A stretch of DNA of 64,000 bases, taken from contig JACRIK010000026.1 of assembly GCA_016235865.1 (NCBI GenBank), positions 124,001-188,000 of the forward strand. Reading direction: 5' to 3'. A program made the translations under genes and the position numbers. Positions within the stretch are counted from its first letter, which is position 1; every line of letters begins with the position of its first letter. The notes under the pieces are model-generated. The model searched no databases and was not told where the DNA came from. It saw only the letters and a list, made by a program, of their open reading frames with translations. Source of the DNA: Planctomycetota bacterium (GTDB lineage: Bacteria; Planctomycetota; MHYJ01; JACQXL01). Below, piece by piece: positions 17,344 to 63,342 of the stretch.

Positions 17344-17480
17344 CAGTCCTTTTTGGGTCTTCCGAGGTGGCAAAAGCCACTTTTTAGGTGCCAATTGGGT
17401 CCTCTGAGGTGCCAATTGGGTCTTCCGAGGTGCCAATTGGGTCCTCGGAGGTGCCTATTGCCACCTCCGAGGTGGCTATA
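17344..17480. repeat. Tandem array of 21-bp units upstream of fdhA (array F)
   Basis: About six degenerate 21-bp units run between the fdhA start and the nuoF terminator. Units begin AGGTGCCAATTGGGTC and three carry the dyad CCAATTGG; outer units diverge to AGGTGG and GCCAC forms. The array lies where the fdhA promoter and leader would be. Confidence 0.85.
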
Positions 17481-29818: not shown

Positions 29819-29985
29819 ATAGAGAGCTCGTGGGACAGAGTTCGACGGATAGCATACCGAACTAAGCGAAGCCCCGTTAGAAAGACCTGTAGTAGGGTAA
29901 TAAACTTGAGGCATATTTATAACCATCACGGGTAATCCGGGGACACGTACCAATTTCTGGCCAATCCGAGTATTATCTCAATAAT

Positions 29986-30440
29986 TGTTAGACGTCTAAC
30001 ATTAAAGTTCTCTCTAATCCCGACAAAGACTGTCGGAATAAGAGCTCCTATGTAGCTATCTAGTTCTAAAAATGTGTGACGTCACACATTAAATAGGCAA
30101 TTAAGGGGGGTATATACAGGGATGTGAGGGTGGTATTATAGGGGGGTGTGGGGGAGGGAGGGGGGTAGTTACCCACACCTCCCCTAGTAGTGACCTACAC
30201 CTCCATCGGTAGTGGCCTACACCTCCACTGGTAGTGACCTACACCTCCATCGGCAGTGACCTACACCTCCACTGATTATTGCCTACCCCTCTATTGGTTA
30301 TTACCTACACATCTACCGGTTATTACCTATACATCTACCTGCCAATAGGGTCAAATGTGCGACGTCGCACATTTGTTAGACGTCTAACAATTAAAGCCCC
30401 TTAGGAATGTGTGACGTCACACAATTGTTGGACGTCCAAC
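29986..30440. repeat. Six perfect palindromes centred on GACGTC
   Basis: Palindromes lie at 29986-30001 (16 bp), 30071-30090 (20 bp), 30352-30375 (24 bp), 30373-30390 (18 bp), 30408-30423 (16 bp) and 30427-30440 (14 bp). They alternate between the GTTAGACGTCTAAC and GTGTGACGTCACAC types. The last four form two pairs whose centres are exactly 18 bp apart, and the two groups bracket array B. All six arms are perfect, which chance does not explain. They look like operator or nucleoprotein sites. Confidence 0.85.
30166..30341. repeat. Tandem array, 8 units of 22 bp (array B)
   Basis: Eight units of exactly 22 bp occur, consensus start TAGTGACCTACACCTCC, drifting to TTATTACCTACACATC at the right end. 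GTAG-N4-CTAC dyads occur across unit borders. The sequence is unrelated to array A although the period is identical. Confidence 0.9.
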
Positions 30441-30494
30441 GTTTTATAATACACCTTATTTTAACCTAACTATCGTAATTAAATGGGTTGTGGT

Positions 30495-30624
30495 ATGAAG
30501 TTTGAGACCAAGGCCATACATTCAGGCGATAAGTCGGATAGCGCGTGCGGCGTATGCCTTTACCGATGTCAGCGGGAATGTTAGCACTACTTTTAACCAA
30601 TACGTGATAGGATATGTGGTGTAG
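30495..30624 (+). pseudogene. Fused gene remnants (PLP-enzyme N-terminus and another C-terminus)
   Basis: An ATG at 30495 opens MKFETKAIHSGDKSD, which closely resembles the start of cystathionine gamma-synthase/O-acetylhomoserine sulfhydrylase enzymes. The match is lost after about 15 codons. In another frame (30535-30624) a run ending FTDVSGNVSTTFNQYVIGYVV resembles the C-terminal strand of an Ig-like or FN3-like secreted protein. The junction looks like a deletion scar joining two unrelated gene ends. Both identifications rest on short stretches and are tentative. Confidence 0.4.
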
Positions 30625-39269: not shown

Positions 39270-42200
39270 TTACTGTTCATATCCCCAACTGATTATCTTG
39301 GGTGTGGTATAATAATAGAATGTGATATCGTCGAATATTATTGTATCGTTTGCTGGCTGATTAATCCTTGTATTTGGTTTGAATAAGAGCTCGTATCTTA
39401 TTCGGTTTTTACTCAGGGTTAATGGTCCGTTCTCAGCCGGCGCGGCGCCGCCTCCGTCAGTCGGGATGGCCAATGTCCGGTTGTTTAATAAATCAGTGGT
39501 TTCGTTTTTCAGTCCGACTTCAACCTTCCCGTCAGGCATAGAGCCATTATCGATTTTGGTTTTTGTATCATACACGGTCCAGTGGACCATAAAGATATTA
39601 ATCTGGTTCGGATTTTCTGCGCCAATGTTTTCGGTTTTGCCAAGGTCAATCTCACGCGAGATGAATTTGGCGTCGTCGCCGGTGTAATATCTGCCTAAGC
39701 TCCAGAGACCGTCAATATTGGGCGGTGGAGGTGGCGGCGGTGGCGGCGGAGGAGGCGGTGGCGGTGGAGGCGGCGGAGGTGGTGGAGGAGGCGGCGGAGG
39801 TGGAGGAGGCGGCGGTGGAGGAGGCGGTGGCGGTGGTGGCGGCGGCGGAGGCGGTGGAGGAGGAGGTGGCCAATCACCATCTCTTTTCCTGCGCGGACAA
39901 CCTGCCCAGATCACCTTTTCTTTGTTGATATAGGTTGTTTTGGTATTGTTTAAACTACAGAGTTTGACATTTTCGTCAACGATAAAGGTGTTGTTGTCAA
40001 CTGATTGCCTGTCAGGAAAGGAAGGCGCAGAACCATTTGAACCTCCAGATGGAGGCGGAATCATCCTTTCGTCTGATTTTTCACTATTACCTGAATCACC
40101 TTCCTGACTAACTGGTATTAACTCAAAAACCAGAACCTCGTCAATAGTTGCGTCAGGGGCTCCGTTCAATCGCAGGGCGCTCATAACCTCGCCTAATCTT
40201 AAATAATTGTCGATACTGTTGTATTTGCCGGTCAGAGCATTCTGCTGGTCCTGGAAGGTGCCTCTTTTCCACGCCTGACCATTGATATAGAGCACGTCAT
40301 TAGCCTCTTGCTTGGTTGTCGGCGGTATTACCGCTGGTGGTTTGGATTCATCCGGTGGTGTGGTCTCGCCAGTCGGTTCAGGCGGTTTAATGGTCGGTTC
40401 AGGCTGTTTTGTCCACTCGGGAATAACAGGTGGTACTTTGTTATGCACCAAGACACCATTAGCAAAGTAGTTATGAGTGTCACTCACTTCCAGGTTATAA
40501 ACCAGGGGGGATTCCGGTATAAATTCAATCCTGACAATTTCCATCAATCCACATTCAGTAAACAGGGCATGATTTACTTTCAATTCATCTGCTCTTTTAC
40601 AGATATCAGAAGCGATATATACGGGATGGTTACCTGTAATCTCTAACTGCGTTCCGTTTTTCAAGGAGATGCGATAATATCCTGATTTATTTTCGTGTTC
40701 GAACACCTCGGCAACTTTAACTAATTTAGTTTGAGATGTCTTTTCATCAAGACCGAATACTTCATATCCTACTTTAATATCCTCGATATTCACTAAAACA
40801 TTGTTCCTGGTTAATATCTTAGTTCCGGCAAGCAGGCAGCCACCCATACCCGGACAAGACGCTAAATCAACATCTTCCTTCTGATAACTGCCGCCATCCG
40901 CAAACACACATAATTTATTGCCGGAAAAGGCATATTTGAGTTGTTTGGTGTCATCTATCATCGCCATGACTTCCTGGACCCTTCTGACCCAGGTAATATT
41001 AATCCATTTGCCGGCCCGGAAGCTGGTGTTGCTCCAATCAGGAGGATTACTGATACCGCTGCAATTCGGATGATTGATATGATTAAGGCAGGGGGTTCCG
41101 GCGCCCTTAAACCCGATGGTATTGGATGTCCCGTATCCGCCGGCCAGGAAACTATTGTGATTCCATCCGTCTCCATCGTCCCGGTAAGACATTATATCGG
41201 CGCGGGGTATGCGGGCGATACTGTATATCCCAAACGGGATTCCGTACCTGCCGTATGTCTCATTACGAGCGGTTGTGTTCATCCAGGAGAAATAGGTCCT
41301 GATTTTGCCTGTTTCCTCCGGATAGAAGTGCGGTTTTACCCACATAGAAACCACGATTAGTTGGTCGTTGAAATCTCCCGGCCTTAGAAAGTAGGCCGGA
41401 ATTGCCTTGCTGTCCGAATATACGCCGTCCGGGTAAAGGCGTCCGGATAATTCATCTGAGGGAGGGATTAATCTGCCTGCGCCGGGAACAGGTTCGGTGC
41501 GGAACTGCTTTATTTCCTGCCCGGTATTGGCATCCAATCCGTTTGTGAAACTGGCCCGGAACCTGAGCGTGCCGCCGTTGATTGTCGGATTGGGTTGTTC
41601 GGTCGTGGCTAGGGCAATATAGCCGTCATAATCAGCGTTTGCGCCGGCGTCCTTATTATTCATTTCAGGCAGGACCTGAAGAGTTAAATCATTATGGGTC
41701 GGCTTGTTTGGATTGGTGTTTTCCGCAATGATATTATTTTTAATCGGTTTATCCTTGAGGTCGGCCAGGAATTGCGCTTCCGTGGTCTCGCGGTAGATAT
41801 CAAATAATTTGACCACGCTCTTGATTTCCGCCTGCGCCAGCACCTTGTTGGCATTGTTTAATATCCGGCCTAATGAGGTTATTTCATAATAGCCGGTCGG
41901 GTAGAAGGTGAATTCGGTAGTGTAGTAAGTTAAATCTGTTTTGTCCGACCTGAGCAACCGGTTGTAATCGGGATTGAAATCGTTCAGGTTGGTATTGGGG
42001 TTAAAATTAGCTTTAAGGATGTCGGCTTCTGTTTTGGTCAGGTTGATGCTGGCAGTCAACGAATCGCAGAAATCGTGGAATTGTTCCCAGTTCCTGAACG
42101 GCCCGGCGGTTTTTATCCGGTTGGCAATCTGTTCCGTGATCTTTACGGCGGTCTCGCGAGAGAACGCGGTGGTTTCTTTTAATTTAAAGGTGGCGCCGGA

Positions 42201-43277
42201 AAACTGCGGAAATTGGTGCAAGGCATAATTTTGGCTGGTGCGGCCCGCGGCGTTTGCCCATTCACTGTCGGTGACATAGTTATCAGCGGGAGAATTGTCG
42301 CTGTCAAGCGCCGCCAGATAAAAGCCCTTAAGGTCCCTGATGAGCGCGATGAGAAGTTGTTTCGGGGCGGTATTGATATTGACCGGCGCCCGGCCGACTA
42401 TCTTGTCATTCTTCTTGGGGAATTTCACCGGTTCGGCAATGCGCATTTCGCTCCAGGATTCAATGTCGCTGTTTAGGGTGGGCGGTTTTCCGTTTCTGCC
42501 CAGACGTCCGGTTAGCGGAGTCGGGCTGACTACCGTGGTATCGCACCAGGCGTAAAAGGTAATATAGGGCGCTAATCTCCGGGCGTCAGTATCGCTCAGT
42601 TTTATTCTTGATTTGAGGTCATCTATGGAGGTATATGGCCCGTTTTTAGTCTTTTCGTCAAATATCTTGGCGCCAGGTTCCCGGCCCAGGTCGATTTCTT
42701 CGGCCAGATTCTCCAGTATTTGTTTGAGATGCGAGTGGTCTTCCATATTGACATAGAGCCGGGCGGACAGGTCGTCTATCTTAAGCGCGAAATAGTCGCC
42801 GTCCTTATTCTTTTGAGACGGCACCCGGCCGGATACGCCGACCTTGTATGGCTTGAGGCCCTTTTTTATTTCCAGTAAATCTTTTGCATTTATATCTCCG
42901 TCATTATTTGCATCCTTCATCAATGAAGGACGCACGGCGCGACTCAGAGGGCAGTCAAAGGTCTGGAGAATGCCGTCGCCATCCTGGTCTTCTTCGGCGG
43001 TGGCCGGATTATCGCCGTCGTTTGGGTCAAGGTCTTCGCCGTAATATTTTAGCCCGTCAATCCTGGCCGGGGTGAGATACGTTTTGGCATTGGAGATGGC
43101 ATAGTGAATGCCGCTCTGGGCCACTAATTTGGCCTGGACATAATCCACGTGGCTCTTTGAGGTGGCACGTTCCATCGTGGTCAGCATTGAAAATAGTATG
43201 CCCAGGATCACCAGCAGGGTCAGGATGCCCAGTATGACAATCAGGACCACCCCGGATTTGGTGCTTTTTGAGCTCAT
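39270..43277 (-). CDS. GspK-like minor pseudopilin with EF-hand loops, LamG-like domain, Hint domain and Pro50 tract
   Basis: The 1335-residue protein starts with a type IV pilin/GspK N-terminus (SGVVLIVILGILTLLVILGILFS). Two EF-hand/dockerin-like calcium loops follow (DQDGDGILQTFD and DANNDGDINAKD, near residues 95 and 130), then the GspK helix-hairpin core. A LamG-like sandwich starts at ~600 (WINITWVRRVQEVMAMIDD). A Hint domain occupies Cys814-Asn946 and interrupts the LamG-like part, which appears to resume after a Pro-rich linker at VLYINGQAWKRG. Residues 1137-1186 are 50 consecutive prolines. The start has GAAGGAAA upstream. It may cap a pseudopilus of a type II-like secretion system with the secretin at 26098, or be a surface protein using the pilin export route. 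Confidence 0.8.
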   Translation of the reverse strand: MSSKSTKSGVVLIVILGILTLLVILGILFSMLTTMERATSKSHVDYVQAKLVAQSGIHYAISNAKTYLTPARIDGLKYYGEDLDPNDGDNPATAEEDQDGDGILQTFDCPLSRAVRPSLMKDANNDGDINAKDLLEIKKGLKPYKVGVSGRVPSQKNKDGDYFALKIDDLSARLYVNMEDHSHLKQILENLAEEIDLGREPGAKIFDEKTKNGPYTSIDDLKSRIKLSDTDARRLAPYITFYAWCDTTVVSPTPLTGRLGRNGKPPTLNSDIESWSEMRIAEPVKFPKKNDKIVGRAPVNINTAPKQLLIALIRDLKGFYLAALDSDNSPADNYVTDSEWANAAGRTSQNYALHQFPQFSGATFKLKETTAFSRETAVKITEQIANRIKTAGPFRNWEQFHDFCDSLTASINLTKTEADILKANFNPNTNLNDFNPDYNRLLRSDKTDLTYYTTEFTFYPTGYYEITSLGRILNNANKVLAQAEIKSVVKLFDIYRETTEAQFLADLKDKPIKNNIIAENTNPNKPTHNDLTLQVLPEMNNKDAGANADYDGYIALATTEQPNPTINGGTLRFRASFTNGLDANTGQEIKQFRTEPVPGAGRLIPPSDELSGRLYPDGVYSDSKAIPAYFLRPGDFNDQLIVVSMWVKPHFYPEETGKIRTYFSWMNTTARNETYGRYGIPFGIYSIARIPRADIMSYRDDGDGWNHNSFLAGGYGTSNTIGFKGAGTPCLNHINHPNCSGISNPPDWSNTSFRAGKWINITWVRRVQEVMAMIDDTKQLKYAFSGNKLCVFADGGSYQKEDVDLASCPGMGGCLLAGTKILTRNNVLVNIEDIKVGYEVFGLDEKTSQTKLVKVAEVFEHENKSGYYRISLKNGTQLEITGNHPVYIASDICKRADELKVNHALFTECGLMEIVRIEFIPESPLVYNLEVSDTHNYFANGVLVHNKVPPVIPEWTKQPEPTIKPPEPTGETTPPDESKPPAVIPPTTKQEANDVLYINGQAWKRGTFQDQQNALTGKYNSIDNYLRLGEVMSALRLNGAPDATIDEVLVFELIPVSQEGDSGNSEKSDERMIPPPSGGSNGSAPSFPDRQSVDNNTFIVDENVKLCSLNNTKTTYINKEKVIWAGCPRRKRDGDWPPPPPPPPPPPPPPPPPPPPPPPPPPPPPPPPPPPPPPPPPPPPPPPPPPNIDGLWSLGRYYTGDDAKFISREIDLGKTENIGAENPNQINIFMVHWTVYDTKTKIDNGSMPDGKVEVGLKNETTDLLNNRTLAIPTDGGGAAPAENGPLTLSKNRIRYELLFKPNTRINQPANDTIIFDDITFYYYTTPKIISWGYEQ
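39720..39869 (-). repeat. 50 consecutive proline codons
   Basis: 150 bp of uninterrupted CCN codons (NGG on the plus strand) encode 50 prolines in the GspK-like protein. The third positions are mixed (CCG, CCA, CCT and one CCC), so the tract is not a simple slipped trinucleotide. Translation would depend strongly on EF-P. Confidence 0.95.
40440..40838 (-). other. Hint (intein-like) domain, 133 aa, within the GspK-like gene
   Basis: The domain begins with Cys814 (GCLLAGTKIL), has IEDIKVGYEVFGLDE, the block B TGNHPVY with the TxxH motif, and ends with THNYFANGVLVHN at Asn946. Residue +1 is Lys, not Cys/Ser/Thr, so the splicing nucleophile on the C-terminal side is missing. This is the pattern of bacterial intein-like (A-type BIL) or polymorphic-toxin Hint domains; no endonuclease is inserted. 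Confidence 0.9.
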
Positions 43278-46639: not shown

Positions 46640-46894
46640 GATAGACAGGCCAGTATCGGAGTTAGGCAGCCGTGTATAGGAGTTGGACAGGCTTGCACAG
46701 GAGTTGGACAGGCCTGTATAGGAGTAAGACGGGCTTGTCTAAGAGTTAGACGGGCTTGAATAGGAGCTGGACAGGTCTGTATAGGAGTTGGACAGACCTG
46801 TCTAAGAGTTAGACGGGCTTGCCTAAGAGTTAGACGGGCTTGCATAAGAGCTGGACGGGCTTGTCTAAGAGTTAGACAAGTCCGTATCAGAGCT
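46640..46894. repeat. Tandem array, 11 units of 21 bp (array C)
   Basis: Eleven full units run from 46658 to 46888, with partial units at both ends. Units read RGAGTTRGACRGGCYTG plus four variable bases. The dyad ACAGGCCTGT is perfect in unit 3 and imperfect elsewhere. The remaining gap (46895-47131) holds a 20-bp palindrome and several hairpins. Confidence 0.9.
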
Positions 46895-54031: not shown

Positions 54032-54295
54032 CTGCGCCTTGTTCTGGCATCGCCTGCTACTTATTCACGACTATACTAATACTTGTTCGGGCTTAGACTG
54101 CTATTTGCAGGCGGCTAATTTGTAGATTACACTTGGCTCGCCTGCTATTTGCAGGCGGCTAAACTGTAGATTACACTCGGCTAAACTGCTATTTGCAAGC
54201 GGCTAAACTGTAGATTACACTTGGCTCGCCTGCTATTTGCAGGTGGCTGGACTGTAGACTACACTCGGCTAAACTGCTATCTACACCGAATCACC
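54032..54295. repeat. Tandem array, 12 units of 22 bp with alternating types (array D)
   Basis: Twelve 22-bp units occur; from 54098 two types alternate, CTGCTATTTGCAGGCGG and CTGTAGATTACACTCGG, both ending in GCTAAA or GCTCGC, giving a 44-bp higher-order period. Each type carries its own dyad (CTGC-N5-GCAG and TGTA-N3-TACA). The first three units are more diverged. Confidence 0.9.
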
Positions 54296-63013: not shown

Positions 63014-63153
63014 AATTGCCAGGGCGGGGGCGGGCATTAAACTTATACCTTATAACTTGTAACTTATAATTGCCCCGAAGGGGTTTGGGCCGGAATCTGC
63101 GATAGGGGGTCCGGATTACTAGTATTGTGTCCCCGGATTAATCCCGTAGAGGC

Positions 63154-63342
63154 GCACTTATGAGTTGTAGTGACGCACTTACGACCTGTAATGACGCACT
63201 TACGACCTGTAGTGACGCACTTACGACCTGTAATGACGCACTTACGACCTGTAGTGACGCACTTATGAGTTGTAATGACGCACTTACGACTTGCAAGTGC
63301 GCACTTATGACTTGTAGTGACGCACTTATAACCTGTGCGCTG
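63154..63342. repeat. Tandem array, 9 units of 21 bp (array E)
   Basis: Nine units with consensus start GCACTTACGACCTGTARTGAC (20 of the 21 positions well conserved) run head to tail. AGTG-ACG-CACT dyads span each unit border. Since 21 is divisible by three, open frames of a Cys/Asp/Ala/Leu heptad pattern arise on both strands; no start site or composition supports a gene. Confidence 0.9.

Follow-up and report, generated by a model that had tools for sequence, protein, structure and literature searches.

Six palindromes centred on GACGTC in a Planctomycetota genome appear to be lineage-specific parS-class sites for ParB-family proteins, apparently in two versions for two ParBs; we give this reading a probability of roughly three in four. 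ParB-family CTPase dimers nucleate on 16-bp parS palindromes, clamp shut and slide onto adjacent DNA, and parS is among the most conserved of bacterial DNA motifs. The sites lie in the window, i.e., the whole stretch of 64,000 nucleotides that was analyzed, where the core GTNNGACGTCNNAC has exactly six matches (at 29987, 30074, 30357, 30375, 30409 and 30427), against a mean of 0.03 and a maximum of 1 per window in 100 dinucleotide shuffles. From left to right they form perfect palindromes of 16, 20, 24, 18, 16 and 14 bp within a span of 455 bp, which bears out, far above expectation, the original prediction of six perfect palindromes of 14–24 bp.

Using a pattern match and a palindrome check, the first site, TGTTAGACGTCTAACA, was placed at 29986–30001. 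The second, TGTGTGACGTCACACA, is at 30073–30088 (within a perfect 20-bp palindrome, 30071–30090). Beyond a 22-bp tandem array at 30164–30338 follow TGTGCGACGTCGCACA at 30356–30371 (within a perfect 24-bp palindrome, 30352–30375), TGTTAGACGTCTAACA at 30374–30389, TGTGTGACGTCACACA at 30408–30423 and TGTTGGACGTCCAACG at 30426–30441; the last has one outer mismatch, being perfect only over 30427–30440 (14 bp) and imperfect on further extension. The claims that four of the palindromes form two pairs with centres 18 bp apart, and that two lie to the left and four to the right of the array, agree with these coordinates (pair centres 30363.5/30381.5 and 30415.5/30433.5). Sites 1, 4 and 6 have TGTT arms and sites 2, 3 and 5 TGTG arms, giving the order TT, TG, array, TG, TT, TG, TT. 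Both of the alternating arm types that had been proposed are present, but each is itself variable, i.e., TGTT(A/G) and TGTG(T/C). The label "engineered-style" is unnecessary.

The source genome (G000), a 2.67-Mb assembly of 38 contigs examined by searches and in selected stretches, contains 12 symmetric or near-symmetric sites. These are confined to four loci, all beside 22-bp arrays, rather than scattered at random as the alternative to the original prediction had it: the window (six sites), C26 at 44.5 kb (two), C30 at 22.5 kb (three) and C12 at 112.2 kb (one). The sole other GACGTC match (C27:144222) is asymmetric and intragenic. A looser pattern, TGTNNNNCGNNNNACA, gave 23 matches in this genome compared with 6 for the reversed control pattern, with no perfect palindromes among the extra matches, while the order-level relative G005 gave 13 compared with 18, with no perfect palindromes. 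In the genome collection, AATGTGNGACGTCNCACATT matched only in the relative JACQXL01, with about four chance matches expected by our estimate; in viral contigs it was absent, and the other arm type gave seven scattered single matches. There was no GC-skew switch at the site cluster on C26, the skew being positive throughout that contig, and we therefore make no origin or terminus call for the sites; the suggestion of a replication or termination factor is left without support. On C12 the skew passes from slightly negative to positive near 80–90 kb, which alone proves nothing, and the contigs are unordered.

The palindromes recur in two further genera of the family, one of them represented by a second Planctomycetota MAG from groundwater. 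They stand beside 22-bp arrays of other sequence in G003 (JACQXL01, Planctomycetota bacterium NC_groundwater_1514), and beside an array of 11–12-bp units in G001. The family-wide class pattern is aaTGTNNNNCGNNNNACAtt, with inner bases that change symmetrically. Across 24 sites from the three genera, TGT....CG....ACA is common to all, with one exception at the outermost ACA base, and the consensus is AATGTTnGACGTCnAACATT. In G003 there are also TGTC arms and the cores ACCGGT, GCCGGC and GGCGCC, and palindromes whose cores differ (TGTTTACCGGTAAACA, TGTCTGACGTCAGACA, TGTTGGGCGCCCAACA and TGTTCGCCGGCGAACA) border the array on its contig C81. This variety is greater than two simple specificities would give, and it counts against our reading.

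The family consensus is one symmetric base away from canonical parS, AATGTTYCACGTGRAACATT, which is what distant members of the phylum returned when 79 relatives were searched with AATGTNNNNCGNNNNACATT. Like chromosomal parS of ParABS systems, the sites are 16-bp palindromes with TGT/ACA ends and a CG centre, present in multiple copies in genomes with a parAB operon and a putative cognate ParB, and found in or near parB, including a copy within parB at the same codons. However, parS is mainly TGTTNCACGTGAAACA (PMC7022226), and because every site departs from that consensus at position 5 (and others), we class them as a parS-derived variant and not as canonical parS. Specifically, the C at position 5 has given way to G (in some sites to T or A), position 3 is T, G or C, cores of CCGG and GCGC also occur in G003, and the family sites have two arm types and lie beside 22-bp arrays. 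A search of G000–G003 gave no perfect match to canonical parS. At one mismatch there was none in G002 or G003, and only AGGTG-cored matches, probably due to chance, in G000 and G001. In G004, G005 and G007, canonical or one-mismatch parS is present in or beside parB.

Within parB of the order-level relative G004, the codons GTT TCA CGT GAA ACA (V-S-R-E-T) form a perfect canonical parS, TGTTTCACGTGAAACA. At the same alignment columns, the parB on contig C191 of G003 has GTT AGA CGT CAA ACA (V-R-R-Q-T), i.e., TGTTAGACGTCAAACA, and that on contig C255 has ATT AGA CGC CAA ACA. Judged from the aligned genes, this codon correspondence is, taken singly, the strongest argument that the palindromes as a class would have descended from parS. 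The proposal that the cluster might serve a partition protein is supported by the parS geometry, by the replacement of canonical parS in the family, by the sites in or next to parB, and by altered DNA-contact residues in the ParB paralogs encoded nearby.

The source genome encodes two HTH_ParB proteins. The gene for ParB1 (C3) follows parA and lies beside clpC, and the protein has the LGRGL motif; ParB2 (C12) is encoded after murC-murB-ddl, and both parA and the LGRGL motif are absent. Downstream of the ParB2 gene come a 22-bp array and then TGTGCTACGTAGCACA, 343 bp away; there was no site in the 11 kb examined around parB1. In G003, the second parB (C255) follows murG in an mraZ-to-murG cluster, with TGTGTGACGTCACACA located 416 bp past the gene end, and the parAB-encoded parB (C191), beside clpC, has TGTT sites inside the gene and 576 bp downstream. 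Of the genes in these clusters, murC, murB, ddl, murG and ftsW were confirmed by NCBIfam, and the rest of the G003 cluster was read from translations. The ParB encoded on C191 (L112:10884–11891) is a mosaic, with ParB1-like N- and C-termini but a ParB2-like centre and HTH, which suggests gene conversion between paralogs. All three genes for ParB2-type DNA-binding domains in the family have a site either inside them or within 600 bp. In G007, a parB2 follows murG and a 22-bp array is present, and no such CG-centred site adjoins the ParB2-type relatives; this, like the result around parB1 of the source genome, counts against our reading.

ParB_N and HTH_ParB domains were found in ten out of ten of these ParBs, the closest solved proteins were ParB, Spo0J and Noc (E values to 5e-44), and the CTPase boxes GERR and EN..RKDLNPIE were invariant in the alignment. 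Arg-204 (Caulobacter numbering) is a parS contact conserved in both ParB and Noc (PMC7383237). This residue is arginine in the five ParB1s, but is K, M, I, L and I in the five ParB2-type domains. Arg-173 is retained in all ten, as is Gly-201 in all but ParB1 of the source genome (T201). Residue 178 is histidine in the two proteins encoded beside TGTG sites (ParB2 of the source genome and the C255 protein of G003) and asparagine in the C191 protein of G003, encoded beside TGTT sites. The two arm types may therefore correspond to the two ParBs, a match that rests on three adjacent pairs.

The array in the window is intergenic and C-rich on the + strand, with a unit of about GGTAGTGACCTACACCTCCACT, and has a G-run boundary (30104–30163) of a type common to many 22-bp arrays of the source genome. 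Sites stand at its 3' end, as at the other loci. At all four site loci at least one site starts within 60 bp of the end of a 22-bp array, and the array unit is different at each. Over the 400 kb sampled, such an array lay no more than 80 bp away for 4.05% of the noncoding bases outside arrays, and the adjacency at four out of four loci is therefore not due to chance. Nevertheless, arrays of this kind also occur away from the palindromes. A 464-kb sample that included the window contained 14 period-22 and 10 period-21 arrays of more than 60 bp, which extrapolates to about 140 in the genome, many with a G6/C6 boundary; perfect palindromes of at least 14 bp near the other 21/22-bp arrays in this sample were few and unrelated in sequence. 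Bacterial satellites of 20–23 nt with constant size and variable sequence have already been described (Subirana and Messeguer, PMC8161180), and the window array belongs to this known class. The arrays resemble those satellites in their constant period, locus-specific unit and intergenic location, whereas an association with parS-like palindromes and the G6 boundary were not found described in the text of that paper that was consulted.

Several other features were observed. Further arrays in the window lie at 2157–2537, 17353–17474, 46644–46894, 54097–54286 and 63146–63336, with many more at the sampled loci. The units of these 21- and 22-bp arrays differ, and many of the 22-bp arrays have a motif resembling AATAGGGGGGTAT...ACCCCCC at their boundaries; this array population is conserved in type throughout the family. 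Between sites 1 and 2 is a stem-loop, TCCCGACA...TGTCGGAA (30018–30037), which belongs to a dispersed hairpin family of more than 30 copies and is probably a passenger; the hairpin TCCCGACA..TGTCGGGA was rejected as the key to the cluster, since those copies mostly lack palindromes. A dispersed two-hairpin element, TCCCGACAAAAACTGTCGGGATAAGAGCCAGTAAC...TAACTGGCTCTAA (L013:3909–3985, L016–L034, and more than 30 places in the source genome), is often immediately upstream of a start codon, and has the look of a repeat, specific to the lineage, that sits in 5'-UTRs or within operons. Next to two of the site-bearing arrays are truncated copies of the N-terminal part of a cystathionine gamma-synthase-like gene (MKFETKAIHSG...), at 30494–30552 in the window and at C12:114194–114245; a copy that appears to be intact begins at C26:1488. 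The repeat TAATCCGGGGACACGTACCAATTTCTG, possibly the end of an insertion element, occurs at 29930–29974 in the window, at L081:1501–1546, where it abuts a truncated dnaK-like fragment, and also in G005. A 1335-aa open reading frame on the minus strand of the window (39270–43277), in which Pfam places an intein/pretoxin HINT domain and which also contains a long GGA/GGC repeat, is a possible polymorphic-toxin-like or intein-bearing protein.

The constant proximity of sites to arrays, set against the 4% background, is also what would be expected if the palindromes were passengers of a compound intergenic repeat, in which palindromes, hairpins and arrays were copied together, either in a MITE/REP-like manner or by recombination, with no dedicated binding protein. 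The window and C12 loci do share the flanks CTACCTGCCAATAGGGT and TTATTTTAACYTAASTATCGTAATTAAATGGGTTGYGGTA, and the C81 and C200 sites of G003 have about 80 bp of flank in common. Yet copying of this kind does not account for the fact that the sites have parS geometry, that one lies within a gene at the parS codons, that canonical parS is missing and that parB is nearby, and there are only 12 palindromes compared with the roughly 140 extrapolated arrays. An origin from REP/RAYT elements was rejected, because the palindromes do not flank either of the genome's two Y1 transposases. REP and CGTC-tagged repeats are high-copy stem-loops in which the GTAG or CGTC tags are unpaired ends (PMC3733652), whereas in the present sites the motif forms the centre and is paired. 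We consider the passenger explanation improbable.

Less probable still is that the palindromes are operators of another dimeric regulator (e.g., LacI- or GntR-like) controlling adjacent genes. Many operators resemble perfect CG-centred dyads, but the sites in the window and on C12 are located where two genes converge or past the end of a gene, their neighbors are unrelated, the symmetric change of the inner four bases is unlike a single operator, and the regulator that recurs nearby is parB itself.

Symmetry of this kind could also reflect selection on the stem of an RNA or cruciform hairpin rather than recognition by a protein. Among the 24 sites, 93.5% of cells were paired, with 26 double changes, and the covariation score was 0.364, compared with 0.102 for shuffled and no more than 0.071 for slid sites. 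This symmetry is stricter than in canonical parS, where asymmetric variation is allowed, and is not explained by ParB binding alone. However, it would also be seen in dimer sites, or could arise if template switching corrected the palindromes, and with a perfect palindrome of zero loop making a poor hairpin, and TGT/ACA and CG invariant at fixed positions as in parS, we regard selection on a stem as very unlikely. There were no matches to Rfam families in the window.

If the palindromes are parS-class sites, a shift in this Planctomycetota family would have taken TGTTYCACGTGRAACA to TGTTNGACGTCNAACA and added a new second version, TGTGNNACGTNNCACA. The parAB-encoded ParB would use the TGTT version, and the second, ParA-less ParB of the division/cell-wall cluster the TGTG version. 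Most likely, as at parS, ParB dimers would nucleate at the palindromes, take up CTP, and then close and slide, and such loading would flag a section of the chromosome for segregation and organization. At the window cluster both ParBs would load side by side on either flank of the array, which may limit their sliding, and the pairs of sites could favor neighboring loading or competition. The second ParB may be Noc-like, providing a site-marked link between chromosome position and division. In its fullest form, this would be a dual centromere code, with parS rewritten by a C5-to-G change and divided between two arm types for two ParBs, the second ParA-less and in the division/cell-wall cluster, the sites interleaved within shared loci and tied to 22-bp arrays, and a Noc-like coupling that arose independently of Firmicutes Noc, via residues R204 and N178. 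We put this forward tentatively, and think it rather doubtful as a whole.

We know of one well-studied natural split of specificity in this family, that between ParB and Noc. Noc, with its NBS sites, acts in nucleoid occlusion in the Firmicutes, and the system described here resembles it in having a ParB duplicate that lacks the ParA-activating LGRGL motif within a ParB architecture, a changed site derived from parS, dispersed sites and a possible link to division. It differs in that the sites depart from parS at positions 3 and 5, whereas NBS does so at 1 and 6, and in that ParB2 keeps R173 and G201 but has lost R204 and is encoded in the dcw cluster. Moreover, no membrane helix was obvious by eye in the short N-termini of ParB2, and the protein from the source genome scored 203.8 bits with the Noc model TIGR04285, below the cut-off of 315. 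The replicon-specific ParB–parS pairs of multipartite Burkholderiales genomes, as far as the consulted portion of their description goes (PMC5450999), likewise combine distinct parS versions and distinct ParBs in one cell, but here the second ParB is ParA-less and lies in a chromosomal division cluster. Neither Planctomycet- nor dcw nor murG appears in the main text of a survey of orphan ParBs published in 2025 (PMC12704722), and in the literature searched no paper joined a ParB paralog, nucleoid occlusion and the dcw cluster.

If correct, our reading would provide a natural instance of a centromere code that has been both rewritten and doubled. It would represent a second independent split, involving contact residues that ParB and Noc have both kept, and with the change in site preserved in the coding sequence of parB it would allow direct testing of how centromeres co-evolve with the proteins that bind them. 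A concrete functional neighbor would also be at hand for some bacterial 22-nt satellites that have so far gone unexplained.
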